A stretch of 64,000 nt of DNA. It comes from Chelativorans sp. YIM 93263 (lineage in GTDB: Bacteria; Pseudomonadota; Alphaproteobacteria; Rhizobiales; Rhizobiaceae). The translations under genes and the position numbers were made by a program. Below the pieces are notes generated by a model, which saw nothing but the letters and a program-made list of their open reading frames with translations, did no database searches and was not told the origin of the DNA. Below are positions 21,097 to 63,008 of this stretch, one piece after another. The stretch covers positions 437,930 to 501,929 of the forward strand of contig NZ_JAKCWP010000002.1 of assembly GCF_028767125.1 (NCBI RefSeq), written 5' to 3'. Every line of letters begins with the position of its first letter. Position 1 is the stretch's first letter.

Positions 21097-21130
21097 AGTC
21101 TTTGAGGGAAGTCGGCAAAGTTTGCGCTCT

Positions 21131-21185
21131 GCCTTGCCCCTCTCTGTCCTGCCGGACAAAGGGGGGCGCAAAGGGGCGCAGACAT
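21131..21185. repeat. Fragment of a dispersed intergenic repeat
   Basis: The segment CCCCTCTCTGTCCTGCCGG and the following G-rich block form a partial palindrome (GTCC/GGAC). Its wording closely matches the piece found inside the coding region at 35021-35070, suggesting both are copies of one repeat family. Confidence 0.45.
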
Positions 21186-21211
21186 TGCCTGCTGCTTCGG
21201 GACCACCCCGC

Positions 21212-22156
21212 ATGACAACCTTCCTCCTCAAGCGCCTGGCAATCGGGCTTGTCACTCTGCTGGTCGCCTCCATCGTCGTGTTCGGCGTTCTGGAGGTGCT
21301 GCCGGGCGATCCCGCGCGCATCATGTTGGGCATGAACGCGAGCCCCGAGGCGCTGCAATCGCTTCGTGCTCTGATGGGCCTCGACCAACCGCTCGTCACC
21401 CGCTACCTGAATTGGCTGGGTGGCATGGCCGTCGGCGATTTCGGCGCCTCAATCACCTATTCCTCTCCCGTGATCGATCTCATCGGTGAGCGACTTGCGG
21501 TCTCCCTTCCGCTCGCCATGATCGCGCTTCTCCTGTCCACGTTGATCGCCATTCCTGTCGGCGTTTTCGCCGCGTCCCGGCGCGGCGGCGTCGCCGATAC
21601 GATCACCATGGGCACCGCCCAGGTCGGCGTGGCGATCCCCAATTTCTGGTTTGCCCTGCTCCTCGTCTACGTCTTCGCCGTCGGCCTGCAACTGGTTCCC
21701 GCTGGTGGCTTTCCCAGCTGGAATGAACCATGGGCAGCCATGAAGGCACTGATCCTCCCGGCTGTCTCCCTGGCTCTGCCGCAGGCGGCAATCCTCGCCC
21801 GCGTTACGCGCTCGGCCATGGTGGAGGTCATGGGCGAGGACTATATCCGCACCGCCCGCGCCAAGGGCCTGCCGCGCAAGCGGGTCCTCTGGCGTCATGC
21901 GCTGCGTAACGCGCTCATTCCGGTTCTCACGATCCTCGGCCTGCAATTCGCGTTTCTGCTGGCCGGCACGATCATCATCGAGAACGTCTTCTACCTTCCC
22001 GGTCTCGGCCGCCTCATCTTCCAGGCGATCAGCCAGCGTGACCTGATCGTGGTCGAAGGCGTCGTCATGCTGCTGGTGGCGAGCGTCGTCCTGATCAATC
22101 TTGTCGTCGACATCTGCTACGCGGTTGTCGACCCGCGCCTGAGGGTCCGCCGATGA
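21212..22156 (+). CDS. Peptide ABC transporter, permease (DppB type)
   Basis: 314 residues, six predicted transmembrane helices. The N-terminus FLLKRLAIGLVTLLVASI and the EAA-like loop VMGEDYIRTARAKGLPRKRVLWRHALRNA are typical of DppB/OppB subunits. The ATG at 21212 is chosen because the family's first helix starts immediately after it; a longer frame reads back through a repeat. It overlaps the next gene by four bases (ATGA), implying translational coupling. Confidence 0.93.
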   Translation: MTTFLLKRLAIGLVTLLVASIVVFGVLEVLPGDPARIMLGMNASPEALQSLRALMGLDQPLVTRYLNWLGGMAVGDFGASITYSSPVIDLIGERLAVSLPLAMIALLLSTLIAIPVGVFAASRRGGVADTITMGTAQVGVAIPNFWFALLLVYVFAVGLQLVPAGGFPSWNEPWAAMKALILPAVSLALPQAAILARVTRSAMVEVMGEDYIRTARAKGLPRKRVLWRHALRNALIPVLTILGLQFAFLLAGTIIIENVFYLPGLGRLIFQAISQRDLIVVEGVVMLLVASVVLINLVVDICYAVVDPRLRVRR

Positions 22157-23022
22157 GCGCCGAGTCCGCATTCGCCCCGCCGCCGGAGCGCCATTTTCTT
22201 ATGAAGGCGCTCACCAATCGCTCGTTCCTGATCGGCCTCATCATCACGGCCTTCATCGCCCTGATGGCGCTCACCTCCTTCTTCTGGACGCCTTACGACA
22301 TCACACGCCTGCAGGTGTCCGACCGCATGCAGGGCCTCTCGCTCGCACATCCCTTCGGCACCGATCACATGGGCCGCGATATCCTCTCCATGATCATGAT
22401 CGGCGCACGCAACTCCATCGCGGTCGCCATCGTCGCCGTCGGTATCGGCATGGGTGTCGGCGTGCCGCTCGGTACTTGGGCCGCCGCCCGCGGCGGCTGG
22501 GTGGACGAGATGCTGATGCGGGTAAACGACGTCGTCTTCGCCTTTCCTGCCCTGCTTTCGGCCGTGATGATCACCGCCATCTTCGGCCCCGGCGCCGTCA
22601 ACGCGATCATAGCCATCGGCATCTTCAACGTACCGGTCTTCGCCCGTGTCGCGCGCGCCGGCGCGCTGGCCCTGTGGCCCCGCGAGTTCATCCTGGCGGC
22701 ACGCGCTTCCGGCAAGGGCAAGACGCTTATCACTATCGAGCACATCCTGCCCAACATCACCAATCTGCTGCTCGTTCAAGGCACGATCCAGTTCGCACTG
22801 GGCATTCTGGCCGAAGCAGGCCTTTCCTATCTGGGACTCGGCGCGCAGCCGCCTATGCCCTCCTGGGGCCGCATGCTTTTCGACGCGCAGACGCGCATCG
22901 CCGTCGCGCCGCATCTGGCGCTATTCCCCGGTCTTGCCATCGTCATCACCGTGCTTGGCCTCAATCTCCTGGGCGACGGCTTGCGAGACATCCTCGATCC
23001 GAAACTGAGGCGCGAGCGATGA
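22153..23022 (+). CDS. Peptide ABC transporter, permease (DppC type)
   Basis: 289 residues. Has the DppC hallmark HPFGTDHMGRDILSMIMIGARNS before the permease domain and the coupling loop REFILAARASGKGKTLITIEHILPN, broken here in description only. Six transmembrane helices are expected. It overlaps both neighbours by four bases, so this is one tightly coupled operon. It forms the translocation channel with the subunit at 21212. Confidence 0.93.
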   Translation: MSAESAFAPPPERHFLMKALTNRSFLIGLIITAFIALMALTSFFWTPYDITRLQVSDRMQGLSLAHPFGTDHMGRDILSMIMIGARNSIAVAIVAVGIGMGVGVPLGTWAAARGGWVDEMLMRVNDVVFAFPALLSAVMITAIFGPGAVNAIIAIGIFNVPVFARVARAGALALWPREFILAARASGKGKTLITIEHILPNITNLLLVQGTIQFALGILAEAGLSYLGLGAQPPMPSWGRMLFDAQTRIAVAPHLALFPGLAIVITVLGLNLLGDGLRDILDPKLRRER

Positions 23023-29307: not shown

Positions 29308-30693
29308 TCAGCCCCTCGATTTATGCTGATCCTGCTCCGCCCGGTCCAGAGCTGCGACAATCCGGTCGCACGCCAGATCGATCGTCTCGCACGTCCAGAT
29401 CAGCGGTGGGGAGAGGATCATTGTGTCGCCGACAGCCCGCATCATCAGCCCGTCCTCGATGGCATGGTCCCGCACGCTCGTTGCGGCCGCACCTTCCCCG
29501 GGAAAACGCTCGCGTGTTTCCTTATCCGCCACGATCTCGATTGCCCCCATCAGCCCGAAGCTGCGTACCTCGCCCACGATCGGATGATTGGCAATGCGCT
29601 CCTTCAGCGAGTCGGCGAAATATGGTCCAGTCTCCTCGCGAACGCGCTTGATCAGCCCCTCCCGCTCGATGATTTCGAGGTTTTTCAGCGCCACGGCACA
29701 AGCCACGGGATGACCGGAATAGGTGTATCCGTGGAAGAACTCACCGCCCTTCTCCACCAGCGTCGAGGCAATGCGATCGCCTACCAGAAGTGCTGAAAGC
29801 GGCTGATAGCCCGAAGTCAGCGCCTTGGCGGTGCTGATCGTGTCGGCCTCAATACCGATCCTCTGCGCGGCAAACCATTCGCCCGTCCGGCCATAGCCGG
29901 TGATTACCTCGTCGAGCATCAGCAGGACGTCGTATTTACGGCAGATTCGCTGGATTTCCGGCCAGTAACTTTCCGGCGGGATTTTCACGCCCCCCGCACC
30001 CATGACGGGCTCGCCGATGAAGGCAGCGACATTCTCCGGCCCGGCCTCCAGAATTGCGTCTTCCACGGCCTTTGCCGCACGCAGGCCGAAATCATGCTCG
30101 CTCTCACCCGGCTCCTTCAGTTCGAAAGCGTAAGGCGGCATGACATGCGAAATATTTGGCACTGCCCCGTTGAGCTGGCCGTGCATGGCCGCCATTCCAC
30201 CCAGCGACGTGCCTGCGATAGTCGAGCCGTGATAGGCCCACTGGCGTGAGATGATGCGGTTTTTCTCCGGCTTGCCCTCCAGCGCCCAGTAATGCCGCAC
30301 CAGCCTCAAGGCCGTGTCGTTTGTCTCCGAGCCCGACGAGCCGTAGAATACCTGACTGATATTTGCCGGCGCGATCTCCGCCAGCTTCTTTGCCAAGAGA
30401 ACGGGCGACGGCGTGGAGCAGCGGAAGAAAGAATTGTAATAGGGCAACTCCTTCATCTGCTCGTAAGCGACCTCCGCCAGCTCTTCGCGGCCATAGCCGA
30501 CATTCACGCACCAGAGCCCCGCCATGCCGTCGAGGATCTCCTTGCCTTCCGTGTCATAGACGAAGGCCCCGTCGGCGCGGGTGATAATGCGTGAGCCTGC
30601 GGCGCGCAGATCCCTGTGATCGGTAAAAGGATGCAGGTGGTGCGCGGCATCGAAGCCCTGAAGCTGCGCCAGGGAAAAGTTTTGGTAAGCCAT
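29308..30693 (-). CDS. Class III omega-aminotransferase
   Basis: 461 residues, fold-type I PLP enzyme. The PLP Lys290 is in TISTAKALTSGYQP, the Asp261 in LMLDEVITGYGRTGEW, and YGSSGSETNDTALRL binds the cofactor phosphate. Related enzymes move the amino group of beta-alanine, GABA, putrescine or other omega-amines to pyruvate. It is divergent from mttB1 with 341 bases between starts, so it may share regulation with the methylamine/betaine genes. The amine donor is not determinable. Confidence 0.9.
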   Translation of the reverse strand: MAYQNFSLAQLQGFDAAHHLHPFTDHRDLRAAGSRIITRADGAFVYDTEGKEILDGMAGLWCVNVGYGREELAEVAYEQMKELPYYNSFFRCSTPSPVLLAKKLAEIAPANISQVFYGSSGSETNDTALRLVRHYWALEGKPEKNRIISRQWAYHGSTIAGTSLGGMAAMHGQLNGAVPNISHVMPPYAFELKEPGESEHDFGLRAAKAVEDAILEAGPENVAAFIGEPVMGAGGVKIPPESYWPEIQRICRKYDVLLMLDEVITGYGRTGEWFAAQRIGIEADTISTAKALTSGYQPLSALLVGDRIASTLVEKGGEFFHGYTYSGHPVACAVALKNLEIIEREGLIKRVREETGPYFADSLKERIANHPIVGEVRSFGLMGAIEIVADKETRERFPGEGAAATSVRDHAIEDGLMMRAVGDTMILSPPLIWTCETIDLACDRIVAALDRAEQDQHKSRG

Positions 30694-31034: not shown

Positions 31035-32612
31035 ATGAACGTTTCCGGCACGCCTGAGAATGCGCAGACTGCGACCAGCCGCCCGCGCCGGGGCGGACGC
31101 GCGGGCAAACGGGGCGCGGGCGCGGGAAGTTTCGAGCAACCGCCCTTCCGCCAGCTTCGCATACCCTTCCCTCCGACGCAGATCGTCTCCGAGGACGAAC
31201 TCGAATCCATTCACCTCGCCTCCTTGCGCGTGCTGAAGGAAATCGGCGTCGACGTACTGCATGACGAAGCGCGCGCCATCATGCGCCGCCATGGCGCCGA
31301 TGTGGACGAGGATACGCAGCGTGTGCGCTTCGACCCCGATATGGTGCTCGAGTTCATTTCCCACTGTCCCGCTGAATACACAGTGCACGCGCGCAATCCC
31401 GCGCATGATCTGCGCGTGGGTGGCGATAACATCATCCTGGCGCAGATGGCCTCCGCGCCGAACTGCTCCGATATGGACGGCGGGCGGCGGCCTGGCAATC
31501 AGGCCGATTTTCGCAATTTCGTGAAGCTCGGGCAGATGCACAACATCGTCCATTGCCTGGGCGGCTATCCGGTGGAGCCGATCGACGTCCATCCCAGCAT
31601 CCGGCATCTGGAGTGTCTGCGCGACATCACCACCCTCACGGACAAGACCTTCCACATCTATTCGCTGGGGCGCGAGCGCAATCTGGATGGCATTGAGATC
31701 GCCCGCATTGCCCGCGGGGTGAGCCGCGAGCAGTTCATCGACGAGCCCTCCTGCTTCACGGTCATCAATACAAACTCGCCGCTCAGGCTCGATATTCCGA
31801 TGATGGAAGGCATCATCCAGATGGCCACCCAAGGCCAGGTGGTGATCGTCACGCCCTTCACACTCGCCGGCGCAATGGCGCCTGTTACCATTGCCGGCGC
31901 CCTGGTCGAGCAAAACGCCGAGGCGCTCGCCGCACTTGCCTTCTCGCAAATGGTGCGGAAAGGCGCACCCGTTGGCTATGGCGGCTTCACATCGAACGTA
32001 GATATGCGCTCCGGTGCTCCCGCTTTCGGCACACCGGAATATATGAAGGCGCAGCTTATCGGCGGACAACTCGCCCGCCGCTATAAGATCCCCTACCGCA
32101 GCTCCAACGTCTGCGCGGCCAACACGGTGGATGCTCAAGCCGCCTATGAGAGCGTGTTCTCGCTCTGGGGCTGCATTCAGGGCCACACAAACTTGATGAA
32201 GCATGCCGCTGGCTGGCTAGAGGGCGGACTGTGCTGTTCCTATGAAAAAATGATGCTCGATTTCGAACTTCTACAGATGGTCGCCGAGTTCCTGACGCCC
32301 CTCGACCTTTCGGAAGACGCGCTTGGGGTCGAGGCCATACGCGAGGTCGGGCCGGGCAGCCACTTCTTCGGCTCGCAGCACACGCAGGCGCGCTACAAAA
32401 CGGCGTTTTACTCCCCCATGATCTCCGATTGGCGCAATTATGAGAGCTGGGCACAAGCTGGTGCCCCGACCTCCATAGAACATGCGAACCGCCTCTGGAA
32501 GGAGCGGCTGGCCCTCTACGAGGAACCGCCCATGGAAGAGGCTATCCGCGATGAACTTAACGAATTCGTCGAACGCCGCACCCGCGAAGGCGGGGCGCCG
32601 ACGGATTTTTAA
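31035..32612 (+). CDS. MttB-family (trimethylamine/betaine methyltransferase-like) protein 1, non-pyrrolysine
   Basis: 525 residues. MttB-family TIM-barrel methyltransferases move a methyl group from a quaternary or tertiary amine to the cobalt of a corrinoid protein. Residues about 15-35 form an Arg/Gly-rich segment (PRRGGRAGKRGAGAG). The barrel follows from about 50, with VHARNPAHDLRVGG, ITPFTLAGAMAPVTIAGAL-type text and HAAGWLEGGL. No in-frame amber codon is present, so it is not the pyrrolysine TMA enzyme; glycine betaine (MtgB), proline betaine or carnitine types are closer. The ATG at 31035 follows GAGG. A DMGDH-like gene follows at 102 bases. The substrate is unproven. Confidence 0.88.
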   Translation: MNVSGTPENAQTATSRPRRGGRAGKRGAGAGSFEQPPFRQLRIPFPPTQIVSEDELESIHLASLRVLKEIGVDVLHDEARAIMRRHGADVDEDTQRVRFDPDMVLEFISHCPAEYTVHARNPAHDLRVGGDNIILAQMASAPNCSDMDGGRRPGNQADFRNFVKLGQMHNIVHCLGGYPVEPIDVHPSIRHLECLRDITTLTDKTFHIYSLGRERNLDGIEIARIARGVSREQFIDEPSCFTVINTNSPLRLDIPMMEGIIQMATQGQVVIVTPFTLAGAMAPVTIAGALVEQNAEALAALAFSQMVRKGAPVGYGGFTSNVDMRSGAPAFGTPEYMKAQLIGGQLARRYKIPYRSSNVCAANTVDAQAAYESVFSLWGCIQGHTNLMKHAAGWLEGGLCCSYEKMMLDFELLQMVAEFLTPLDLSEDALGVEAIREVGPGSHFFGSQHTQARYKTAFYSPMISDWRNYESWAQAGAPTSIEHANRLWKERLALYEEPPMEEAIRDELNEFVERRTREGGAPTDF

Positions 32613-32714
32613 AGATGGTGATGTGGGACGGCCGTTTGGCCGAAGATGGTTCAGCGCCTGACTTGCGCTTCGTTTATCTCCGGAATCAAAATCTTCAGAA
32701 GCGGAAATAACCCC

Positions 32715-35306
32715 ATGAGAACCCAAGCAAAAGCGGTGGTCATCGGCGGCGGCGTAGTTGGATGCTCGGTGCTTTATCATTTGGCCCGCGCCGGCTGGAC
32801 AGATGTGCTTCTCATCGAGCGCTCGGAGCTGACCTCCGGTTCGTCGTGGCATGCAGCCGGCGGGTTTCACACGCTGAACGGCGATCCGAACGTGGCCAAA
32901 CTGCAGGCCTATACGGTGCAGCTCTACAAGGAGATCGAGGAGTTGTCAGGTCAGTCCTGCGGACTGCACTTGACGGGCGGCGTGATGATGGCCGACAGCC
33001 CGGAGCGCATGGACTTCCTGCGCCTCGTCCACGCCAAAGGGCGCTATCTCGGCATGGAGACCGAGCTGATCACTCCATCCGAGGCCAAGTCCATGTTCCC
33101 GCTCATGGACGAGAGCCACTTCGTCGGCGCCCTATGGGATCCGGTGGAAGGCCATCTCGACCCCTCTGGTACTACCCATGCCTACGCCAGGGCGGCGCGC
33201 AAGCTGGGCGCCGAGATCGAGCTTCGCAACAGAGTGATCGAAATCACGCAAAAACCGGACGGCACCTGGAATGTGGTGACCGAAAAAGGCACAGTGAAAG
33301 CGGAGCACGTGGTCAATTGCGGTGGTCTGTGGGGCCGCGAGGTAGGCCGCATGGTGGGGCTTGAACTGCCGCTTCTGGCCATGGAGCACATGTATCTGCT
33401 CACGGAGCCCATGCCGGAAGTGGAGGAGTTCAACCGCTCAACCGGCCGCGAGCTGATAGGCGTGATCGACTTCAAGGGCGAGATTTACACGCGCCAGGAG
33501 CGTAACGGCGTCCTGCTCGGCACCTACGAAAAAGCCTGCAAACCCTGGTCGCCGGTCGACACGCCCTGGGATTTCGGCCACGAACTGCTCCAGCCCGACA
33601 TCGACCGTATCGCCCCTTCGCTGGAGGTCGGCTTCCGCCACTTCCCCGCGCTGGAAAACGCCGGGATCAAGCAGGTCATCAACGGCCCCTTCACCTTCGC
33701 CCCGGACGGCAATCCGCTGGTCGGTCCCGTCCAGGGCCTGACCAATTTCTGGTGTGCCTGCGCGGTCATGGCCGGCTTCAGCCAGGGCGGCGGCGTGGGG
33801 CTGGCGCTGGCGAACTGGATGGTAGATGGCGATCCGGGCTTCGACATCTGGGGCATGGATGTGGCCCGCTTCGGCGAATGGGCGACCCTGCGTTACACCA
33901 ACGCCAAGGTCCGCGAAAACTACTCGCGACGCTTCTCCATCCGCTTCCCCAACGAGGAGCTCCCCGCCGCCCGGCCAGCACAGACGACGCCGCTCTACGA
34001 CGTGATGGTGCGCGACAACAATGCCGTGATGGGTGACAGCTGGGGCTTGGAAACACCTCTCTGGTTCGCGCCCAAAGGCACCGAGGCCCAGGACGTCGTC
34101 TCCTTCCACCGCTCGAACGATTTTGAGCATGTCGGGAACGAGGTGCGTGCCGTCAGGAATGGTGTTGGCGTGACCGAAATCGCCAACTTCGCCAAATACG
34201 AAGTCACCGGCACAGGCGCGGAAGCCTTTCTCAATCGCCTCATGACCAACCGCATGCCGAAGGCCGGGCGCATTGTTCTGTCGCCCATGCTCAACCAGTT
34301 CGGCAAGCTGATCGGCGACTTCACAATAGCGAAGGCCGGCAACGACCGCTTTATGATGTGGGGCTCTTCCGCGGCGCAAATCTATCATATGCGCTGGTTT
34401 GAAACACACATGCCGGCTGACGGCTCCATACGCATCCACCGTTTCGACCAGACGCTCGTCGGCCTTTCCATCGCCGGGCCGAAATCTCGCGCGGTGCTTG
34501 AAAAGCTCACCGATGCCGATGTTTCGAAGGAAGCTTTCCGCTTCATGGACTTCCGCGAGTTGGATGTGGCGGGCGCGCCGTGTATGGTCAATCGCCTCAG
34601 TTATACCGGCGATCTCGGTTACGAGATCTGGATGCCGCCGGCCTATCAGCGCCGGGTCTACGAGAACATCAAGGACGCGGGCGCAGAGTTCGGCATCGTC
34701 GACTTCGGCATGCGCGCGCTGCTTGCCATGCGGCTGGAGAAAAATTTCCCCACCTGGTTCCGCGAACTGCGTCCGATCTACGGCCCGTTCGAAGGGGCTA
34801 TGGAGCGCTTCGTCCGCCTTGAGAAGAATGATTTCATAGGGCGCGATGCGGCGCTCAAGGAACGAACTGAAGGCCCAAAGATCTGCCGCGTCTCCTTCGT
34901 CGTGGACGCACTGGATGCCGACGTAATGGGTGACGAGCCGATCTGGGCAAAGGTCGGTGATCGGGATTTCGGCACGGTCGAAAAGCCGCATGGCTACGGA
35001 GCATCAAGGTTTGGCGCCGACCGATCCCCTCTGTCCGCTGAGCGAACATCTCTCTCTCATGAGGAGAGAGACGCCTCCGCGATCCTCGGCATCACCGACG
35101 GAGAGTGGCGCGTCGTGGGCTGGATCACCTCAGGTGGCTACGGCCATTTCGTCAAACAATCCCTCGCCCAGGGCTACGTCCCGGCGGGATTGGCAGAGGA
35201 CGAAAGCGAAGACCTGTTCGAGATTGAAATTCTTGGTCAGCGCCGTCGTGCCCGTATTACGGTCGAGCCGCCCTTCGATCCGAATGGAGAGCGGATGCGG
35301 GGATAG
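32715..35306 (+). CDS. FAD-dependent dimethylglycine/sarcosine dehydrogenase-like protein with GcvT domain
   Basis: 863 residues. An N-terminal DAO-type FAD domain (GGGVVG at 11-16, covalent-FAD-type His46 in SSWHAAGGFH) is followed by a linker and a folate-binding aminomethyltransferase (GcvT) domain from about 440. Such enzymes oxidise dimethylglycine or sarcosine and pass the methyl carbon to tetrahydrofolate or release formaldehyde. It follows mttB1, so betaine to dimethylglycine to sarcosine is a natural sequence. Residues about 763-792 look foreign: they are encoded by a palindromic repeat inserted in frame. The ATG at 32715 begins the FAD motif. Confidence 0.9.
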   Translation: MRTQAKAVVIGGGVVGCSVLYHLARAGWTDVLLIERSELTSGSSWHAAGGFHTLNGDPNVAKLQAYTVQLYKEIEELSGQSCGLHLTGGVMMADSPERMDFLRLVHAKGRYLGMETELITPSEAKSMFPLMDESHFVGALWDPVEGHLDPSGTTHAYARAARKLGAEIELRNRVIEITQKPDGTWNVVTEKGTVKAEHVVNCGGLWGREVGRMVGLELPLLAMEHMYLLTEPMPEVEEFNRSTGRELIGVIDFKGEIYTRQERNGVLLGTYEKACKPWSPVDTPWDFGHELLQPDIDRIAPSLEVGFRHFPALENAGIKQVINGPFTFAPDGNPLVGPVQGLTNFWCACAVMAGFSQGGGVGLALANWMVDGDPGFDIWGMDVARFGEWATLRYTNAKVRENYSRRFSIRFPNEELPAARPAQTTPLYDVMVRDNNAVMGDSWGLETPLWFAPKGTEAQDVVSFHRSNDFEHVGNEVRAVRNGVGVTEIANFAKYEVTGTGAEAFLNRLMTNRMPKAGRIVLSPMLNQFGKLIGDFTIAKAGNDRFMMWGSSAAQIYHMRWFETHMPADGSIRIHRFDQTLVGLSIAGPKSRAVLEKLTDADVSKEAFRFMDFRELDVAGAPCMVNRLSYTGDLGYEIWMPPAYQRRVYENIKDAGAEFGIVDFGMRALLAMRLEKNFPTWFRELRPIYGPFEGAMERFVRLEKNDFIGRDAALKERTEGPKICRVSFVVDALDADVMGDEPIWAKVGDRDFGTVEKPHGYGASRFGADRSPLSAERTSLSHEERDASAILGITDGEWRVVGWITSGGYGHFVKQSLAQGYVPAGLAEDESEDLFEIEILGQRRRARITVEPPFDPNGERMRG
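35021..35072. repeat. Palindromic repeat inserted in frame in a coding region
   Basis: CCCCTCTGTCCGCTGAGCG-like text is followed by a CTCTCTCTCATGAGGAGAGAG-type inverted repeat (35050-35070, described by position). It resembles the repeat at 21131-21185. The frame stays open through it. Confidence 0.6.
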
Positions 35307-35323
35307 CCCCTCCAACTACAATG

Positions 35324-36127
35324 TTAAGGAGGGAAGGGACCGAGCGCGCGGCGGAGGAGCGCCAAGTGCTCTGGTGGTGTCGTCCAGCTGGTGATGAACG
35401 GCAGGCCTTTTCGCCGCCCCGTCCAGCCGGCGACCACCAGACCGGCGGATGCAGGCTCGAAACGCAGGATGAGCGTCCAGGTGCGGCAGTCGACAGCACA
35501 GACGTCCGCCCTGCCTTCGGCAACGGCGAGCGCGGAGGCACGGTGGGAGCCCGTCTCGAATTGCTCCGGAAACAGTGAAAAGCCTTCGCCCATAATCTCC
35601 AGATCGCGCCGCAGGGCAATGAAACCGGACATGGAATTGGGTTCGTTGTAGGCCAAGCGCTTGCCGCGCAGCTTCTCTAAAGGGATGCGGGCACCCGCAT
35701 CGGCGGAAGCGGTGATCGCCGGCGCCTCGCCGCGCCGCATCAGGATCGCGCTCGAATAAAGCTGCCCCTCTCCGCCCTCATGGGCCGAATAATCCGGCTG
35801 GCCAACGACTTGCACATACTTATCGAGCCCGGCTTCCATCGGCCCCCAGCAGGTCTGCGCAAGCAGAAGGGCCGGATGCCGCCACAACACACCGAGGTCG
35901 AGTTCATCCGGCGGAAGGGTAGCCGGATCCGGCGCGATCAACCGACCTTCGGCGTCGCGGATGCCGCCCGGCACCGCCGGCATATCGGCATTGCGGCGTG
36001 TAAGCCACGCCGGCGCGTCAAAATCTTCCGCCCTCAACGCATGGCAAAGCTGCGACCATTCGGCGTCGGTCTCGGCAAGCGTCTCAGGCCAGTCATACAT
36101 CGGAAAGGCGGTAACGAAGGTGCTCAT
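35324..36127 (-). CDS. PhnD/SsuA-like solute-binding fold protein without signal peptide
   Basis: 267 residues. It resembles the periplasmic phosphate/phosphonate binding-protein fold (PhnD-like): KLRGKRLAYNEPNSMSGF and SHRASALAVAEGRADVCAVDC are the usual hinge and ligand segments. The N-terminus MSTFVTAFPMYDWPETL is not a signal peptide, so the protein is probably cytoplasmic and not part of a classical importer; no permease or ATPase is near. It lies 45 bases after the desaturase gene on the same strand. Its role is unknown; a sensor or ligand carrier is a guess. Confidence 0.75.
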   Translation of the reverse strand: MSTFVTAFPMYDWPETLAETDAEWSQLCHALRAEDFDAPAWLTRRNADMPAVPGGIRDAEGRLIAPDPATLPPDELDLGVLWRHPALLLAQTCWGPMEAGLDKYVQVVGQPDYSAHEGGEGQLYSSAILMRRGEAPAITASADAGARIPLEKLRGKRLAYNEPNSMSGFIALRRDLEIMGEGFSLFPEQFETGSHRASALAVAEGRADVCAVDCRTWTLILRFEPASAGLVVAGWTGRRKGLPFITSWTTPPEHLALLRRALGPFPP

Positions 36128-36172
36128 GGGATCATATCGACCGCAAGAGCGAAGGAACGCAAGGCTTCACTC

Positions 36173-37183
36173 TCATTCCTTCGCCGGTCTTGCCGGGATG
36201 GGTATGGTTCCCGCGCCGGCCAACGAGCGGCCTTGTGCACGCGGACGGAAAGCGCGTGGCGCATACGGATCGCGATGAAGCACCGGATGCACCACCGGCT
36301 CCTTCGCGCGAAAGGCAAAATCCTTGAGAAGCGCAAAATAACCCGGATAGGCATAGCCGCCGTTGCGGCGCAACCATTCCTCCTGGCGTTCCCGATAAAG
36401 CCGCGGTAGCGCATACCAGGGTGCTGCCGGAAGTTTGTGATGTACCAGATGCAGATTGTTGTTGAGGAACAGCAGGGAAAGCAGCGAACGCTCCACGATG
36501 ATGGTGCGGCCGTCCGGCCGCTCGGACCACTGATGCTCGGCAAAGGTGCGAATGGCGATCAACGACTGTCCAAGCCAAGCAGGCACCAGTACATACATCC
36601 ACAGCGGCATACCGAAGCCATAGGAGATGATCGGCACAACGACTGCCAACCCGAGGACGTGCAAGCTCCACGCTTTTCGAACATCGCGGTCGCCCGCGGC
36701 GATCAGCTTCGTCTCGGAGGCGAAAAACGCGACGTTCATGATCAGCGGCCCGAGGATGAAACGGCCAGCCATCGTGTTGTTGATCTGCAGGAGCAACCGA
36801 ACCGCGCGCGGCAACTCTTTATAATGCCAAAGGGCGCGGTAGTAGCTCTCGGGATCCTCGAACGGGTCGGTCAGCCGCTCATCCGCATGGTGTCGCAGAT
36901 GCAAGGCCTTGAAGCGGCGATAAGGATAGACAAGGCCGATCGGCAATCCGACAAGGATCTCATTGACCGCTGCGCTGCGCGTGGGATGCCCGTGCAGACA
37001 CTCGTGCATGAGCGATGATTGAAGGGCAATCGTAAAGGTCAGAACCACAAGCGCAGCAATCGGCCAATCCGGCCAAAGAGCAAAGCCGGCCGCGCCCCAA
37101 GCTGAATAACATAGAAAAATCAGCACAAATGTCGGCCACTCAATCGCCGGGCGGCCGTGCCGGCTCTTGTCTCTCGTTTCCAT
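36173..37183 (-). CDS. Membrane fatty acid desaturase-family protein
   Basis: 336 residues, integral-membrane di-iron oxygenase family. The three histidine boxes are HECLHGH (60-66), HLRHH (95-99) and HLVHH (245-249). Four or more hydrophobic segments flank them. The ATG at 37183 is selected (AGGA about 5 bases upstream; a second ATG is adjacent); a much longer frame would overlap the divergent regulator. It probably forms an operon with the PhnD-like gene. Such enzymes desaturate fatty acids or hydroxylate small substrates; the link with the neighbouring methyl-transfer genes is positional only. Confidence 0.85.
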   Translation of the reverse strand: METRDKSRHGRPAIEWPTFVLIFLCYSAWGAAGFALWPDWPIAALVVLTFTIALQSSLMHECLHGHPTRSAAVNEILVGLPIGLVYPYRRFKALHLRHHADERLTDPFEDPESYYRALWHYKELPRAVRLLLQINNTMAGRFILGPLIMNVAFFASETKLIAAGDRDVRKAWSLHVLGLAVVVPIISYGFGMPLWMYVLVPAWLGQSLIAIRTFAEHQWSERPDGRTIIVERSLLSLLFLNNNLHLVHHKLPAAPWYALPRLYRERQEEWLRRNGGYAYPGYFALLKDFAFRAKEPVVHPVLHRDPYAPRAFRPRAQGRSLAGAGTIPIPARPAKE

Positions 37184-37349
37184 CATTTTCCTGCGGTGCC
37201 ACAACACGCTGAATGCGTCGCGAAAGGCTACTGACACTTTTTGACAGGAGGCCCGCGGACCGGCAACGAGAGAATGCGCACAATGCGTTGCGTCTTGAAA
37301 GCAAATCCTGCAAATGTTTACGAAAGAAAACAAATGCGGAGTATCGTCC

Positions 37350-38210
37350 ATGGACGACACAACGAAGAACCCACCCGACAAGCGCGACCTTTCTGAGGTC
37401 TTCCGCCAGCGGTTGAGAACGCTGCTCCAGCGCTCTGGGCTGAACCAGTCGGCATTTGCTGCTGCGGTCGGGATCGACCGCTCGGCGCTGTCGCAGCTTC
37501 TGGCCGGCAGTTCTGCACGCTTGCCGCGCGCCGAAACGCTCATGAACATTGCCGCCCGGCATCAGGTCTCGCTCGACTGGCTGCTGGGCCTCAGCCATGA
37601 TGAAGGCATCACGGGCGAACTACGCGAAAATCTGGAGATCGCGGAAGCCGAAGGCGGCTTCGGGCAGACCCTGCTCGCCCGGTGGCATGCCGAAGCCATC
37701 GGCACCAAGATCCGCTATGTGCCCTCGACCATCCCCGATCTGCTGCGCACGGAGCACGTCATCCTCTACGAGGCGGAAACAGCCCTCCAAAGCCGCGAAG
37801 CACAGATCGGCGAAGCCCGGTATCGGGTAGACTATAACCGCCGCCCCGAGACAGACATGGAAGTCTGCATGTCCAGGCAAACCCTCGAGGTTTTCGCAAG
37901 GGGCGAAGGGATCTGGCAAAATCTTCCGCTGGATGTGCGGGTCGAGCAAATCGCCCATATGACGCAACTGCTGAAGGACCTCTACCCGACGTTCCGCCTT
38001 TTTCTCTATGACGGGCGGAGGCGCTATTCCGCGCCCTACACGGTGTTCGGTCCCTATCGCGCCGCGCTCTATATCGGCGGCATGTACCTCGTGCTGAACG
38101 CAACACAGTCCGTGGCCACCCTCACCCGCCATTTCGATAATCTGATCCGCGCTGCCGAAGTAAACGCCCATGAGACAGCGGATTTCGTTCAATCACTTTC
38201 GTTTGATTGA
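37350..38210 (+). CDS. XRE-family transcriptional regulator with C-terminal effector-like domain
   Basis: 286 residues. A helix-turn-helix of the Cro/CI type spans about 14-75 (LNQSAFAAAVGIDRSALSQLL, quoted as motif SALSQLLAG). The remaining 200 residues form a conserved domain of unknown ligand (for example RPETDMEVCMSRQTLEVF). It is divergent from the desaturase and directly precedes bmt, so it may control one or both. The ATG at 37350 has GCGGAG upstream; an ATG twelve codons earlier lacks a ribosome site. Confidence 0.85.
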   Translation: MDDTTKNPPDKRDLSEVFRQRLRTLLQRSGLNQSAFAAAVGIDRSALSQLLAGSSARLPRAETLMNIAARHQVSLDWLLGLSHDEGITGELRENLEIAEAEGGFGQTLLARWHAEAIGTKIRYVPSTIPDLLRTEHVILYEAETALQSREAQIGEARYRVDYNRRPETDMEVCMSRQTLEVFARGEGIWQNLPLDVRVEQIAHMTQLLKDLYPTFRLFLYDGRRRYSAPYTVFGPYRAALYIGGMYLVLNATQSVATLTRHFDNLIRAAEVNAHETADFVQSLSFD

Positions 38211-38227
38211 ATGCTTTACTTGACGTT

Positions 38228-38247
38228 ATATAAAGACTTCTTTATAT
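38228..38247. promoter_or_regulatory. Perfect 20-bp palindrome (ATATAAAGA-N2-TCTTTATAT) upstream of bmt
   Basis: Two 9-base arms are exact reverse complements across a CT spacer, and a third related half (ATCTTTATA) follows. It lies 49 bases before the bmt ATG and 18 after the XRE stop, the position of an operator. From memory it resembles sites assigned to SahR, an S-adenosylhomocysteine-sensing ArsR-type regulator of methionine-cycle genes; the XRE neighbour is the other candidate binder. Confidence 0.7.
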
Positions 38248-38295
38248 CTTTATACAGCTATCAGAATGGCGTTTCCGACTGGAAAGGCGGCTGCC

Positions 38296-39315
38296 ATGCA
38301 GAACCCGATCGACGCTCTGATCGCAGAGAAAGGCGTGCTTCTTGCCGACGGCGCGACCGGCACTAACCTTTTCGATATGGGCCTGCAATCGGGTGAAGCG
38401 CCCGAATTGTGGAATGAAGATGCACCGGAAAAGGTGGAGGCCCTGCACAGCGGATTCGTCGAGGCGGGCTCCGATATCATTCTCACCAACTCCTTCGGCG
38501 GAACCCGTCAGCGGCTGAAACTGCACGGCGCGCAGGATCGCGTTTTCGAGATCAACAAGAAAGCTGCGGAAATCGCCTGCCGCGTGGCGGCAAGTGCAGG
38601 TCGGCGCGTCATCGTCGCCGGCTCTGTGGGCCCCACCGGTGAGCTTCTGGTGCCGCTCGGGGCGATGGCTTACGAGGATGCGGTGAACGCATTTGCCGAG
38701 CAGATCGAGGGGCTGAAGGCCGGCGGCGCGGAGGTCGCCTGGATCGAGACCATGTCGGCGCCCGACGAGATCCGTGCGGCGGCGGAGGCGGCAATCCGGG
38801 TCGGGCTCCCCTACACATATACGGGCTCTTTCGACACGGCCGGACGCACCATGATGGGCCTGGCGCCAAAGGATATCCACGGTGTGGTCGATGAACTCTC
38901 CGAAAGGCCTGTCGCCGTGGGCGCCAATTGCGGCGTCGGCGCGCCAGACATCCTTGCCGCATTGCTGGACATGTCGGAAGCCCAGCCCGACGCCAAGATC
39001 GTCGTTAAGGGCAATTGCGGCATCCCGGAGTTCCACGGCTCGGAAATCCATTATTCAGGCACGCCGGAGCTCATGGCCGATTATGTGCGCCTGGCGGTTG
39101 ATGGCGGCGCCAGGATCATCGGCGGCTGCTGCGGCACGTCCTTCGAGCATCTTGCCGCCATGCGCAAGGCGCTCGACGAGCATCGGAAAGGCGCCCGACC
39201 CAGCGTGCAGGACATCGAGTCACGCGTCGGGCCGATGCGAAACAAGGCTGCCGCCCAGAGCGGCGCCGATAGCGCCGGACCAAACCGCCGGCAGCGGCGG
39301 CGGGCACGCGCTTGA
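38296..39315 (+). CDS. bmt: Homocysteine S-methyltransferase (betaine-homocysteine methyltransferase, Bmt)
   Basis: 339 residues, zinc-dependent TIM-barrel homocysteine methyltransferase. The three zinc ligands are Cys212 (GANCGVG) and Cys278-Cys279 (GGCCGTS). The start DGATGTNLFDMG is typical. In Sinorhizobium meliloti the Bmt enzyme uses glycine betaine to make methionine and dimethylglycine; proteins of this class can also take methyl groups from methylated corrinoid proteins, and a corrinoid gene lies 2 kb away. The ATG at 38296 follows a GGAAAGGCGG site. The C-terminus ends in a basic tail (RRQRRRARA). Confidence 0.9.
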   Translation: MQNPIDALIAEKGVLLADGATGTNLFDMGLQSGEAPELWNEDAPEKVEALHSGFVEAGSDIILTNSFGGTRQRLKLHGAQDRVFEINKKAAEIACRVAASAGRRVIVAGSVGPTGELLVPLGAMAYEDAVNAFAEQIEGLKAGGAEVAWIETMSAPDEIRAAAEAAIRVGLPYTYTGSFDTAGRTMMGLAPKDIHGVVDELSERPVAVGANCGVGAPDILAALLDMSEAQPDAKIVVKGNCGIPEFHGSEIHYSGTPELMADYVRLAVDGGARIIGGCCGTSFEHLAAMRKALDEHRKGARPSVQDIESRVGPMRNKAAAQSGADSAGPNRRQRRRARA

Positions 39316-39350
39316 TTTAAACCGACGGGATAGGCTGCCGTCCGCACCTC

Positions 39351-40979
39351 TCACGAGAAGGCGTCGGGCATGGAGTCCTTGCGCCGCGCAACATAGTCCT
39401 GCAACGCCTCGTCGATGCCCTCGTCCAGAGTTGGCGCCTGATAGGCATCGAGCCACTGGCGGGCGAGTTCGTTGGCGCGCTGCTGCGCGGTCTTCTCGCC
39501 GTCGCTCGCCCACTGCTCATAGGAATTGTTATCCGCAATAGAAGAGCGATAGAAGGCGTTCTGGAAGTTGGCTTGGGTATGGCTGCAGCCTAGATAATGG
39601 TTGCCCGGCCCGACCTCTCGGATGGCATCCATTGCCTGCCCGTTCTCCGAGAGGTCGAGCGGCTCGCACAGGCGCTGCTGCATACCGAGTTGATCAATGT
39701 CCATCATAAATTTCTCGAAGGACGAAACCAGCCCACCCTCCAGCCACCCGGCCGCGTGGAGCACGAAATTGGTGCCGGCGAGCACTGTCGCGTTCAACGT
39801 GTTCGCGCTTTCATAAGCCGATTGCGCATCCGGAATCTTCGATGCGGTCAGCGATCCGCCCGTGCGGAAGGGAAGGCCCAGCCTGCGGGCGAGTTGTGCC
39901 GCTCCGTAGGAGACGAGCGAAGGCTCGGGCGTGCCGAAGGTCGGAGCACCGGACTGCATGGAAATGGAAGAGGCAAACGTGCCGAAAACCACCGGCGCGC
40001 CCGGACGCACAAGCTGCGTGAAGGCGGCACCTGCCATCACTTCCGCCAAGACCTGGGTCAGCGTGCCGGCTACGGTCACCGGGCTCATGGCACCTGCCAG
40101 GATGAATGGTGTGATGATGCAGGCCTGGTTGGCCCGGGCATAGACCTTCGCAGCACCCAGCATCGTCTCATCGAACACCATGGGCGAGTTCGCGTTGATA
40201 AGGTTGATGACGACCGTGTTCTGATCGACGAATTCCTCGCCGAACAGGATGCGCGCCATGGCCACCGTGTCCTCGGCGCGCTCGGGTGCCGTCACCGAGC
40301 CCATGAACGGCTTGTCGGACAAGCGCATGTGCGAATAGATCATGTCGAGATGGCGCTTGTTCACCGGCACGTCCACCGGCTCGCACACTGTCCCGCCCGA
40401 ATGGTGAATCGGCGGCGCCATATAGGCCAGCTTCACCAGATTGCGGAAATCCTCCAGCGTTGCATAACGGCGGTTGCCGTCGAGGTCGCGAATGAAGGGC
40501 GGCCCGTAGACGGGGGCGAAAATGGTCGTGTTGCCGCCGATTTCGACGGAGCGCTCCGGGTTGCGCGCGTGTTGAGTGAAGGTTGACGGGGCGGTTTTCA
40601 GGAGCTCACGGCACAGTCCCCTGGGAAAGTGCACACGCTCGCCCTTTACCTCCGCTCCGGCTTCCTTCCAAAGCTGAAGCGCTTCCGGATCGTCGCGAAA
40701 CTCGATACCGATTTCTTCGAGGATCGTATCGGCGTTCGCCTCGACAATGCCCAACCCTTCTTCGTCCAAAACCTCATAAGGCCGCAGGGGACGACGTATG
40801 TAACCGAGTTGCTGTCCCGGCCCGCTACCGCCCCGTGCCGCGCGGCGGGCGGCTGCACCTCCGCGTTCTCCACGGCCGCCACGTTCCCGGCCGGAACGGC
40901 CTTTCCTGCTCTCGCCGGCTTCAGTGGTCAATTCCTGGTTCGTCGCCGGATCCTGGTCCATCTTTACATCCTTCGACAT
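39351..40979 (-). CDS. MttB-family methyltransferase protein 2, non-pyrrolysine
   Basis: 542 residues. The MttB barrel starts at about 65 and carries FTQHARNPERSVEIGGN, CIITPFILAGAMSPVTVAG and HAAGWLEGGLVSSF, parallel to the first paralogue. Residues about 22-55 are extremely Arg/Gly-rich (RSGRERGGRGERGGAAARR). No in-frame amber codon occurs, so no pyrrolysine. The ATG at 40979 has GAGG 6 bases upstream. It is divergent from the corrinoid protein, its probable methyl acceptor, with 287 bases between them. The gene converges on bmt. Likely substrate: a betaine; unproven. Confidence 0.88.
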   Translation of the reverse strand: MSKDVKMDQDPATNQELTTEAGESRKGRSGRERGGRGERGGAAARRAARGGSGPGQQLGYIRRPLRPYEVLDEEGLGIVEANADTILEEIGIEFRDDPEALQLWKEAGAEVKGERVHFPRGLCRELLKTAPSTFTQHARNPERSVEIGGNTTIFAPVYGPPFIRDLDGNRRYATLEDFRNLVKLAYMAPPIHHSGGTVCEPVDVPVNKRHLDMIYSHMRLSDKPFMGSVTAPERAEDTVAMARILFGEEFVDQNTVVINLINANSPMVFDETMLGAAKVYARANQACIITPFILAGAMSPVTVAGTLTQVLAEVMAGAAFTQLVRPGAPVVFGTFASSISMQSGAPTFGTPEPSLVSYGAAQLARRLGLPFRTGGSLTASKIPDAQSAYESANTLNATVLAGTNFVLHAAGWLEGGLVSSFEKFMMDIDQLGMQQRLCEPLDLSENGQAMDAIREVGPGNHYLGCSHTQANFQNAFYRSSIADNNSYEQWASDGEKTAQQRANELARQWLDAYQAPTLDEGIDEALQDYVARRKDSMPDAFS

Positions 40980-41266
40980 GGCGCGCCTCTGCTTCCCTGA
41001 AATAGGGCGAAGCTTAAATATCGACATGGTAATCAAACGCGTACAGGCGAACGTTCCGCAAACGCCAGACCGTGTCGCATAGAGGCCGTTAAGGCCCGGG
41101 GAGCGACTGCTTGTAAGGCTCCGTAAAAATCGCTTCCGTGTAACATTCAGTCGCTTTCTTTGTGCAAGACGTCGCAAATCAGCTATGGAAACACCCCGCA
41201 CGAGGCTTAACTTGCGACGTAAATGTCCGTGGCCAAAGGCCTGACAGGAAACGGCAGGAGCCTGGA
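40980..41266. promoter_or_regulatory. Divergent region with structured leader of the corrinoid gene
   Basis: 287 bases. On the + strand, ACGTCGCAA at 41169-41177 pairs perfectly with TTGCGACGT at 41212-41220 around a 34-base loop. Near the start codon, AGGCCTG at 41237-41243 can pair with CAG-(GA)-GCCT at 41255-41263, covering the AGGAG ribosome site. This could be a regulated leader; it does not match SAM-II or cobalamin riboswitch patterns that I can recall. Confidence 0.4.
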
Positions 41267-41968
41267 ATGTCCGACAACGACGAGATTATCCTTTCCGAGC
41301 TTCCCGACGATGAACTTGTGCAGCAGATGCACGATGATCTTTATGACGGGCTGAAGGAAGAAGTCGAGGAAGGCACGCGTATCCTGCTCGACCGCGGCTG
41401 GCAACCATATAGGGTTCTCACCGAGGCTCTTGTCGAGGCGATGCGTGTCGTCGGCGAGGATTTCCGCGACGGCATCCTCTTCGTGCCGGAAGTGCTGTTG
41501 TCGGCCAACGCCATGAAATCGGGTATGAACATACTGCGCCCACTCCTGGCCGAGACCGGCGCGCCAAAGCAGGGCAAAATGGTGATCGGCACCGTGAAGG
41601 GCGACATCCACGATATCGGTAAGAATCTCGTCGGCATGATGATGGAGGGAGCTGGCTTCGACGTCATCGACCTTGGCATCAACAACCCGGTCGAAAATTA
41701 CCTGGAGGCGATCGAGGAGCACCAGCCGGATATTATCGGCATGTCCGCCCTCCTGACGACCACCATGCCTTACATGAAGGTGGTTATCGACACGATGAAG
41801 GAAAAAGGCATCCGCGACGACTACATAGTTCTCGTCGGCGGTGCGCCGCTCAACGAGGAGTTCGGAAGGGCCGTCGGCGCGGATGCCTACTGCCGAGATG
41901 CTGCCGTGGCGGTCGAAACCGCCAAGGAATTCATGAAACGCAAACACAACCTCGCGGCGGCGAACTGA
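41267..41968 (+). CDS. Cobalamin-binding corrinoid protein (MttC/MtgC-like)
   Basis: 233 residues. The N-terminal helical cap (about 15-95) is the B12-binding module 1. The Rossmann-like B12 domain carries DIHDIG at 113-118 (cobalt-ligand His115) and SALLTTTMPYM, with GGAPLN near the end. It shuttles the methyl group between MttB-type and acceptor methyltransferases. The ATG at 41267 has AGGAG 7 bases upstream. Divergent from mttB2. No RamA-like reductive activase is seen in the window, although one is normally needed. Confidence 0.93.
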   Translation: MSDNDEIILSELPDDELVQQMHDDLYDGLKEEVEEGTRILLDRGWQPYRVLTEALVEAMRVVGEDFRDGILFVPEVLLSANAMKSGMNILRPLLAETGAPKQGKMVIGTVKGDIHDIGKNLVGMMMEGAGFDVIDLGINNPVENYLEAIEEHQPDIIGMSALLTTTMPYMKVVIDTMKEKGIRDDYIVLVGGAPLNEEFGRAVGADAYCRDAAVAVETAKEFMKRKHNLAAAN

Positions 41969-42002
41969 GCGCCGCGGAGCGCGAAAAGAGCTCGCGAAGA
42001 GT

Positions 42003-42167
42003 TTAGTAGGTCTGCGTCTCAGTCGCGATGTTGCGCCCCGCATCCTGCGTGGCATCGACGACATTGGCCGTGTCCTGGCCCGCACCGCGGATCGTATTGG
42101 CACAGCCACCCGCGAGGCCGGCAACGGCGATTAGAATGGCAAGCCTTGAAAAGATGCGCTGTGTCAT
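42003..42167 (-). CDS. Entericidin EcnA/B-type small lipoprotein
   Basis: 54 residues. A short lipoprotein signal (ILIAVAGLAGGC) places a lipidated Cys near residue 22, followed by NTIRGAGQDTANVVDATQDAGR, the entericidin pattern (NT-GAG-D), broken here only by name. Entericidins are small membrane lipoproteins linked to stress or programmed lysis. The ATG at 42167 has GGAGAA upstream; a longer reading frame lacks support. Divergent from the DUF1638 gene at 47 bases. Confidence 0.8.
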   Translation of the reverse strand: MTQRIFSRLAILIAVAGLAGGCANTIRGAGQDTANVVDATQDAGRNIATETQTY

Positions 42168-42214
42168 GATGTGCTTCTCCGTCTGGTAACGCGCCTTTGG
42201 CGCGGGAAAACGAA

Positions 42215-42859
42215 ATGAATAGGACAGCTTCCAAACGTGCTGAGAGCAAAAATGTTCTGGTGATTGCCTGTGGGATGATCGCACGTGAGGTTCTCGCGGT
42301 TCGTGAGAAGCTTGGCTTCGATCACCTGGAGATCACCTGCCTGCCTGCCGAGTATCACTACTACCCGGACCGCATTCCGCCGGCGCTCGACCAGGCAATC
42401 TCGCAAGCGAAGAATCGGGGCTACCGCCACATCTTTGTCGGATATGCCGATTGCGGCACGGGCGGAGACCTGGATCGCGTGTGCGAGCGGCACGGCGTCG
42501 AACGTATTGCGGGACCGCACTGCTTTGCATTTTACCAGGGCCTCGACGCCTTCGCCCGGATGGAAGAGCAGGACATGATGTCCTTCTACATGACCGATTT
42601 CCTCTGCCGCCACTTCGAGACGTTTTTCCTAAAACCCCTCGGGCTGGATCGGCATCCGGAGCTTATCCCGGACTTTTTCGGCAATTACCAAAAGCTCATT
42701 TACCTGGCCCAGACCGAAGATCCCGAGCTCGAAAAGGTGGCGAAGGACGCCGCGCGCCTGCTTGACCTGGAGTATGAGCGCCGCTTCACGGGCTATGGCG
42801 ACCTTCAAAAAGTCCTGAAGAGCGCCGCTGGAACCGTAAACTTGCCTGATTCCTTATGA
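42215..42859 (+). CDS. DUF1638 protein associated with methyl-transfer genes
   Basis: 214 residues. A conserved domain of unknown function that repeatedly occurs beside MttB-family and corrinoid genes. It contains four well-spaced cysteines: IACGMIA, GYADCGTGGDL, GPHCFAFYQG and DFLCRHFE, suggesting a metal or cofactor site. No signal peptide or membrane helix. The ATG at 42215 is chosen over a TTG six codons earlier. The context suggests a part in amine demethylation or corrinoid handling; the reaction is unknown. Confidence 0.8.
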   Translation: MNRTASKRAESKNVLVIACGMIAREVLAVREKLGFDHLEITCLPAEYHYYPDRIPPALDQAISQAKNRGYRHIFVGYADCGTGGDLDRVCERHGVERIAGPHCFAFYQGLDAFARMEEQDMMSFYMTDFLCRHFETFFLKPLGLDRHPELIPDFFGNYQKLIYLAQTEDPELEKVAKDAARLLDLEYERRFTGYGDLQKVLKSAAGTVNLPDSL

Positions 42860-62677: not shown

Positions 62678-62785
62678 CGACCATTCGGTTGTGAATGGTG
62701 AGCCTCAATGCAGGGTGTGGAGGTGACAACACACTTCGCCTGCGCTAGGTTCAAAATTGTCGTGGGTCAAATTGCCCGCCTGTTT

Positions 62786-62968
62786 GTGGGAGAGAGCAGC
62801 CTCGCTGCCGCCGAAGGGGAAATCGCCCGAAATCTCTCAGGCAAATGAACCGCAAACGGGTTAGACACTCTGGAAAGTCGGGGCTTGCGCCCCGCGCCGA
62901 AGGTGTAAGCGCTGCCGACAGGGTTCCGGTCGCGCGAGTCTCTCAGGCTTCCGACAGAGGGGCACGGA
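62786..62968 (+). promoter_or_regulatory. Tandem glycine riboswitch
   Basis: Two consecutive aptamers: the first shows GGGAGAGAGC, GCCGCCGAAGGGG and CTCTCAGGCAAA; the second shows CGCGCCGAAGGTG, GTCTCTCAGGC and ends in CCGACAGAGGGG. The linking segment TTAGACACTCTGGAAAG is typical. It ends about 40 bases before gcvT and should turn on glycine cleavage when glycine is high. Confidence 0.93.
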
Positions 62969-63008
62969 CACGTTGCATGGGCAGCGTGCGTGCAGCTTTG
63001 GAGGAATG

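Follow-up and report, generated by a model that had tools for sequence, protein, structure and literature searches.

In Phaeobacter inhibens, methionine is made with three separate modules and two further proteins, one RamA-like (DUF4445) and one of the DUF1638 family, and mutant fitness data indicate that the corrinoid, pterin and homocysteine modules, the RamA-like protein and DUF1638 all matter for methionine synthesis (PMC5764234, Price 2018). According to the same paper, RamA-like and DUF1638 proteins have near-identical distributions across alphaproteobacteria, and some bacteria, e.g., Sinorhizobium meliloti, also retain MetH; its authors offered no specific role for DUF1638 (PMC5764234). 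In Ruegeria pomeroyi, mtgC and mtgD are needed both for methionine synthesis and for growth on glycine betaine, metF2 adjoins mtgD, and the Bmt homologue has been named MtgE by Mausz et al.; in S. meliloti, according to these authors, the genes for MtgBCDE lie together with those for both reductive modules and for cobalamin (PMC12478193, Mausz 2025). Here we analyzed a 64,000-nt stretch of DNA from Chelativorans sp. YIM 93263 (NZ_JAKCWP010000002.1; hereafter the window), in which a region of interest of ~12 kb (31035–42859) clearly contains, judged by sequence, a member of this published MtgBCDE or split methionine synthase system.

Core genes and their partners elsewhere in the genome

Gene identities were assigned by Pfam and NCBIfam profile searches of the window proteins. 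The original prediction had read the region as an aerobic, corrinoid-linked demethylation cluster for quaternary amines; all genes that it named are present at 31035–42859, each above its Pfam cut-off, and the ends of the region fit gene boundaries: MttB1 has an in-frame ATG at 31035, and the DUF1638 gene stops at 42859. Four genes at 38296–42859 form the core:

38296..39315, + strand: Bmt (MtgE), homocysteine module (PF02574; PRK07534, 544.5 bits, cut-off 338)
39351..40979, − strand: MttB2 (MtgB), predicted glycine betaine:corrinoid methyltransferase (Pfam MTTB, 796.1 bits, cut-off 25; 940 bits to 4yyc)
41267..41968, + strand: MtgC, stand-alone corrinoid protein (PF02310 and PF02607; GDIHDIG motif; alignment to 1y80)
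42215..42859, + strand: DUF1638 protein, presumed second corrinoid-reactivation factor (PF07796, 90.7 bits, cut-off 27)

We consider it highly probable that this core, with partners on contig C21 and with MttB1 as an accessory, represents a modular cobalamin-dependent methyl-transfer system, MtgBCDE, with glycine betaine as methyl donor. The genes expected of such systems were all found: a PF06253 donor enzyme, a stand-alone PF02310/PF02607 protein, a separate MtgD with a MetF paralogue, a separate homocysteine module (PF02574) and, by Pfam, both an activase and DUF1638 in the genome.

The absence of a RamA-type activase had been raised as a difficulty. This absence holds for the window but not for the genome (4.25 Mb in 27 contigs, with a listed completeness of 99.99%): a profile search of the contigs revealed the sole RACo_C_ter (PF14574) match at C21:52894–53700. 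The open reading frame (ORF) carries Fer2 and the RACo linker, middle and C-terminal domains (Pfam), and directly follows a run of genes for DUF5981, a MetF paralogue and the pterin-binding protein MtgD (MetF/MtgD region, L089 9474–11672). The best name for MtgD is PRK07535, methyltetrahydrofolate:corrinoid/iron-sulfur protein methyltransferase (396 bits, cut-off 259). Thus, the “missing” activase exists in a gene run unlinked to the window, which rules out a corrinoid system that lacks an activase.

Both MTTB genes of the genome lie within the window. PF02310 was matched four times, in MtgC, in part of MetH (C23), in a 715-aa frame on C21, possibly a mutase, and partially in a 113-aa frame on C22. 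MtgC is thus the one evident stand-alone corrinoid protein of this kind and the only apparent candidate to serve both MttB proteins. MetH is encoded on C23 by two ORFs (L090 4059–5135 and 5132–7807) which overlap by 4 bases, the first with the homocysteine domain alone and the second with the pterin, B12 and reactivation domains; this may be either a natural split or a frame error. A profile search detected no Ring_hydroxyl_A match, the family of the GbcA-type glycine betaine monooxygenases, anywhere in the genome. Two SoxG matches and a second gene resembling dimethylglycine dehydrogenase (DMGDH) on C27 would fit onward demethylation. The parts list of the pathway is complete in this genome.

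All modules of the R. pomeroyi and P. inhibens systems are also encoded here, including an MttB-type donor enzyme, MtgC, the homocysteine module and the RACo-type activase; in common with these systems, MtgD adjoins a MetF paralogue and DUF1638 adjoins MtgC. In contrast to both, the Chelativorans genome has the additional two-ORF MetH; its Bmt, MttB2 and MtgC genes form one cluster, with those for MtgD and the activase on a different contig, and an MttB1/DMGDH-like pair is attached. MtgB, MtgC and MtgE are co-located in the S. meliloti bmt (SMc04325) region (PMC12478193), as they are here, whereas MtgD and the activase are apart from the cluster in Chelativorans. Three Sinorhizobium loci (L051, L056 and L086) carry Bmt, MttB2, MtgC and DUF1638 in the order of the window; our screen with the window proteins found no matches to the outer window genes in them. 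The same predicted chemistry, from a quaternary amine via a corrinoid to folate, is known from Desulfitobacterium hafniense MtgB/MtgC/MtgA and Eubacterium limosum MtcB and MtyB, whose predicted ligand-contacting His, Arg and Asn are kept here; unlike this organism, those hosts are anaerobes. A route from betaine via a corrinoid to folate and homocysteine in an aerobe, as proposed in the original prediction, is thus likely for the core, but it is not a new one (PMC5764234, PMC12478193).

Conservation of the core and co-occurrence of its components

Neighborhood conservation was analyzed by screening MtgC loci, the best 80 of at least 589 listed by a pattern scan and hence leaning towards close relatives, with the window proteins. 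Genes upstream of MtgC had to match with at least 50% identity and 100 bits and DUF1638 with 60 bits, and each count uses only loci with enough sequence. MttB2 was found upstream of MtgC in 74/77 loci and Bmt in 52/74, and DUF1638 lies at most 3 kb downstream in 73/78. The XRE regulator (21/73), the desaturase (17/72), the PhnD-like protein (5/71) and the DMGDH-like flavoprotein (2/69) were recovered upstream far less often. The 12 kb is thus composed of a conserved core and an accessory layer; these counts rule out a chance neighborhood for the core, and scattered neighbors, which would have spoken against the cluster, are seen for the outer genes only. The 10-kb flank of the MtgC loci cuts off most MttB1 positions, and MttB1 was traced separately (see below).

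In a sample of 150 genomes of the order, 67 encode an MtgC-like protein, 68 a RACo-type activase, 60 DUF1638 and 63 an MttB-like protein (E ≤ 1e-100); all four are present in 53 genomes and none in 79. MtgC and the activase occur together in 64 genomes, MtgC alone in three, the activase alone in four, and neither in 79, and all 60 genomes with DUF1638 carry MtgC. For the three genomes with MtgC only, the listed completeness is 88%, 56% and 61%. Fisher tests on these tables gave very small p-values, with kinship of the genomes ignored. Of the 64 genomes that encode MtgC and the activase, 40 have them at most 10 kb apart, the Chelativorans genome being among the unlinked ones, and MtgC and DUF1638 lie within 3 kb in 52/60. 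In two genomes, corrinoid domains 46–48% identical to MtgC reside inside ~630-aa frames (G006:C4:6310–6936 and G094:C15:10012–10626), possibly fused methyltransferases.

An alignment of the window DUF1638 protein with 42 of its 75 relatives showed Cys19, Cys42, Cys80, Cys103, His37, His48 and His102 to be invariant in all 43 sequences. The model predicted from 43 sequences (mean pLDDT 88.6) is an alpha/beta protein, and several of the invariant residues are located at or just past strand ends in its secondary-structure string, which suggests a metal or cluster site. The sequence matched no solved structure at E up to 1, and a Foldseek search of the model against the PDB returned no matches at E ≤ 0.001.

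The two MttB proteins, the flavoprotein and the outer genes

Five further genes precede the core within the region of interest:

31035..32612, + strand: MttB1, accessory methyltransferase of the MttB superfamily, non-pyrrolysine (Pfam MTTB, 651.7 bits, cut-off 25; start chosen by eye)
32715..35306, + strand: DMGDH-like flavoprotein with GcvT-type folate domains (Pfam DAO, FAO_M, GCV_T and GCV_T_C; start chosen by eye)
35324..36127, − strand: PhnD-like binding protein, a neighbor (PF12974, 47.0 bits, cut-off 27)
36173..37186, − strand: protein of the fatty-acid-desaturase family, a neighbor (PF00487, 115.5 bits on the longer ORF 36173–37549, cut-off 29.7; start chosen by eye)
37314..38210 (alternative start 37350), + strand: XRE-type regulator, divergent from the desaturase (HTH_3, PF01381, 37.3 bits, cut-off 23)

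Both MttB ORFs run without an in-frame stop, and with 291.9 and 273.6 bits neither reaches the cut-off (525) of TIGR02369, the pyrrolysine-containing trimethylamine methyltransferase (MttB proper). The two proteins share 39.1% identity. Among solved structures, MttB2 scores 940 bits against 4yyc and 422 against DhMtgB (2qne), to which it is 44.2% identical over 473 positions; the corresponding values for MttB1 are 355 bits, 309 bits and 34.5%. In a 2019 study of Methanolobus vulcani, docking without a bound structure predicted Tyr94, Asn199, Arg309 and His345 of DhMtgB as contacts for glycine betaine, and Phe353 was also proposed for stacking (PMC6855144). We compared these positions in 75 MttB2 relatives (≥70% identity, E ≤ 1e-100, among the 80 loci, with the window's own copy, L091, left out) and in 29 MttB1 relatives among the best 30 matches listed, of which the window itself is one. 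The positions of Asn199, Arg309 and His345 are kept in 75/75 and 29/29 relatives, respectively. Tyr94 is a Tyr in 75/75 MttB2 relatives, and in the MttB1 relatives it is replaced by Ala (22), Ser (5) or Gly (2). The window proteins follow this pattern, with all four positions retained in MttB2 and an Ala in MttB1. Based on the residue pattern, glycine betaine is the predicted donor of MttB2. In our reading, the MttB1 group is a candidate subfamily in which the pocket has been altered and the chemistry preserved; because the predicted glycine betaine-binding Tyr is replaced in MttB1 relatives and kept in MttB2 relatives, MttB1 probably serves another betaine.

To trace MttB1, we took 20 of the 22 best other genomes with MttB1 relatives as stretches of up to 20 kb (L126 only 7.2 kb); of the two left out, G069 has a DMGDH-like gene beside MttB1 and G024 a Bmt-like match instead. 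A DMGDH-like gene adjoins MttB1 or lies within ~2 kb in 12/20 loci (L121–L125, L129, L132, L133, L135 and L137–L139). Bmt comes after the pair in L123 and L135, with MttB2 further along; in L122 the pair occurs with Bmt, and in L124 with MttB2. The pairing makes chemical sense: the first methyl group of a quaternary amine would be removed by MttB1, and the next one, from the tertiary amine, by the flavoprotein. A literature search retrieved nothing on such a pair, judged by titles and abstract openings. A full oligopeptide-type transporter set lies beside MttB1 in 6/20 loci (L123, L124, L125, L132, L133 and L137), and the window's own SBP_bac_5 transporter (19615–23022) was rejected as a partner of MttB1, with a binding protein 27–30% and permeases 30–38% identical to the MttB1-linked ones; its ATPase parts are up to 44% identical to those beside MttB1 relatives. 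The class-III aminotransferase beside MttB1 (29308–30693) was matched in L121 and L122 alone of the 20 loci. On a Mesorhizobium sp. WSM1497 plasmid (L144, 9004–15399), an MttB1 relative with 56.7% identity is grouped with genes for an ABC binding protein, a ring-hydroxylating dioxygenase, a 2OG-Fe(II) oxygenase and an Ldh-family oxidoreductase; together they may form a cassette for betaine catabolism.

The window flavoprotein combines the DAO, FAO_M, GCV_T and GCV_T_C domains of DMGDH with its His motif. It scores 569 bits against the dimethylglycine dehydrogenase chain 4p9s, with SSWHAAG aligned to STWHAAG, the His of which we take to be the flavin carrier. The protein is DMGDH-like, with dimethylglycine as a putative substrate; the DMGDH-like gene on C27 encodes a protein 36% identical to it which scores slightly higher against the solved DMGDH. 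A wider joint reading, which we offer tentatively and regard as less likely than not, is that MttB1 represents a distinct aerobic subfamily without the Tyr94 aromatic that demethylates a bulkier betaine, that MttB1 and the flavoprotein would together remove two methyl groups, via cobalamin and then folate, into one MtgC, and that DUF1638 works alongside the activase and carries a metal or a cluster.

The desaturase and PhnD-like genes form a loose pair that also occurs on rhizobial plasmids (window 35324–37186; L145 7001–8939; L147 4986–6804). In at least 11 of the records compared (60 of 64 and 60 of 130), no more than 0.35 kb separates the two, and in others the distance is several kb or more. 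The desaturase matched no solved structure at E up to 1, no signal peptide is evident by eye in the window PhnD-like copy, and a literature search on desaturase with PhnD returned nothing related by title. On the Phaeobacter sp. G2 plasmid CP104104 (L143, 8978–22569), a desaturase relative and a divergent HTH gene, with one DUF2061 gene between them, lie near a carnitine 3-dehydrogenase gene and ~7.5 kb from an MttB gene; the desaturase and regulator may have to do with quaternary amines. At the far end of the window (62777–64000), a glycine riboswitch (63.6 bits) precedes a GcvT-like ORF, named by eye, that runs past the window end.

Proposed route of the methyl group and competing explanations

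In the route that we propose, MttB2 (MtgB) would demethylate glycine betaine and load the methyl group onto the cob(I)alamin of MtgC, from which MtgD (C21) would pass it to tetrahydrofolate, and the adjacent MetF paralogue would start oxidation of the folate-bound methyl group. In an alternative branch, Bmt (MtgE) would transfer the methyl group to homocysteine to yield methionine. The RamA/RACo-type ATPase on C21 and DUF1638 would re-reduce inactive cob(II)alamin. The dimethyl product may then be demethylated by the DMGDH-type enzymes (window and C27) and sarcosine oxidase. MttB1 could act as an accessory donor module on the same MtgC, probably for a betaine other than glycine betaine, with the adjacent flavoprotein taking the next methyl group. 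The substrates in this organism, the specificity of MttB1 and the mechanism of DUF1638 are what we infer in this scheme.

Several observations weigh against this route. The activase scores below the NCBIfam cut-offs for RamA (119/500 bits) and AcsV (393/800 bits), and MtgC below those of both NCBIfam MtgC models. The DhMtgB Phe353 position is Gly in both MttB groups, which speaks against taking the docking too literally. G011, G102 and G137, three of the four genomes with the activase only, are 94–100% complete, five of the 67 MtgC genomes lack an MttB match at the threshold used, and seven lack a DUF1638 match, including G013, G098 and G129 (98–100% complete), so that DUF1638 is not needed everywhere. 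Moreover, the 150 genomes are related and their counts are not independent. With its own MetH, including a reactivation domain, the organism need not use Bmt as methionine synthase, and Bmt purified from P. inhibens was reported to form methionine directly from betaine and dimethylsulfoniopropionate (DMSP) without cobalamin (PMC12366255, Narvaez-Barragan 2025).

This last result, the separate MetH and the NCBIfam name of the Bmt family, betaine--homocysteine S-methyltransferase, could indicate that Bmt by itself is a true betaine-homocysteine methyltransferase whose place beside mtgC reflects a shared substrate instead of corrinoid methyl transfer. We regard this as rather unlikely, since the closest solved structure to Bmt is the homocysteine module of Thermotoga MetH (1q7m, 152.8 bits), compared to 43.2 bits for human BHMT, where the alignment ends at residue 319/406; Bmt has 339 aa, and the BHMT-type C-terminal segment beyond the barrel is absent from the alignment. 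C212, C278 and C279 of Bmt align with C207, C272 and C273 of the Thermotoga chain, presumably zinc ligands. Furthermore, mutants of the P. inhibens Bmt homologue show the same phenotypes as those of the corrinoid and pterin modules (PMC5764234), Bmt of the S. meliloti type is stated to lack the betaine-binding residues of human Bhmt (PMC12478193), and the in vitro test used 200 µM enzyme with 200 µM donor (PMC12366255). The sequence affinity of Bmt thus favors the MtgE role and is compatible with some use of betaine, and the in vitro and mutant results do not exclude each other. That Bmt may accept the corrinoid-bound methyl group, a point raised in the original prediction, is supported by analogy to the P. 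inhibens mutants, which narrows the question, while the in vitro activity suggests betaine as another possible donor. It also seems improbable that the core is a split methionine synthase only, with MttB2 acting on a substrate other than glycine betaine: the identity of MttB2 to DhMtgB does not assure its specificity and 4yyc is annotated as putative only, but MttB2 and all 75 relatives compared retain Tyr, Asn, Arg and His where contacts to glycine betaine are predicted, the genome has no further MttB besides MttB1, and the search of it for a Ring_hydroxyl_A oxygenase gave no match.

A single pathway for one substrate that spans all 12 kb and has the desaturase, PhnD-like and XRE genes among its parts is similarly doubtful. 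The order MttB1, DMGDH-like, PhnD-like, desaturase and XRE recurs in L121 and L122, and together with Bmt, MttB2 and MtgC in L045; XRE and desaturase travel together upstream of Bmt, and the plasmid CP104104 places a desaturase relative and divergent HTH gene near carnitine 3-dehydrogenase. Against this stand the low locus counts for PhnD-like, desaturase and DMGDH-like genes (5/71, 17/72 and 2/69) and the rhizobial plasmids on which desaturase and PhnD-like genes are found together with no listed methyltransferase nearby. On these counts and plasmid pairs we reject the full 12 kb as a single functional unit; the desaturase and PhnD-like genes probably do not belong with the demethylase, and the PhnD-like protein probably stands outside the demethylation pathway.

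MtgBCDE with MttB1 as an accessory thus remains our preferred reading. As the core system has already been described, the fresh part is the second methyltransferase, MttB1; in addition, our analysis provides a genome related to rhizobia in which a complete parts list can be read, settles the activase point for this genome and places the homocysteine protein in a known modular system. Interest narrows to the donor of MttB1, the mechanism of DUF1638 and the source of the methyl group for Bmt, be it MtgC, betaine or both. For Chelativorans sp. YIM 93263, the cluster probably strips methyl groups from betaines with vitamin B12, for energy or for methionine.

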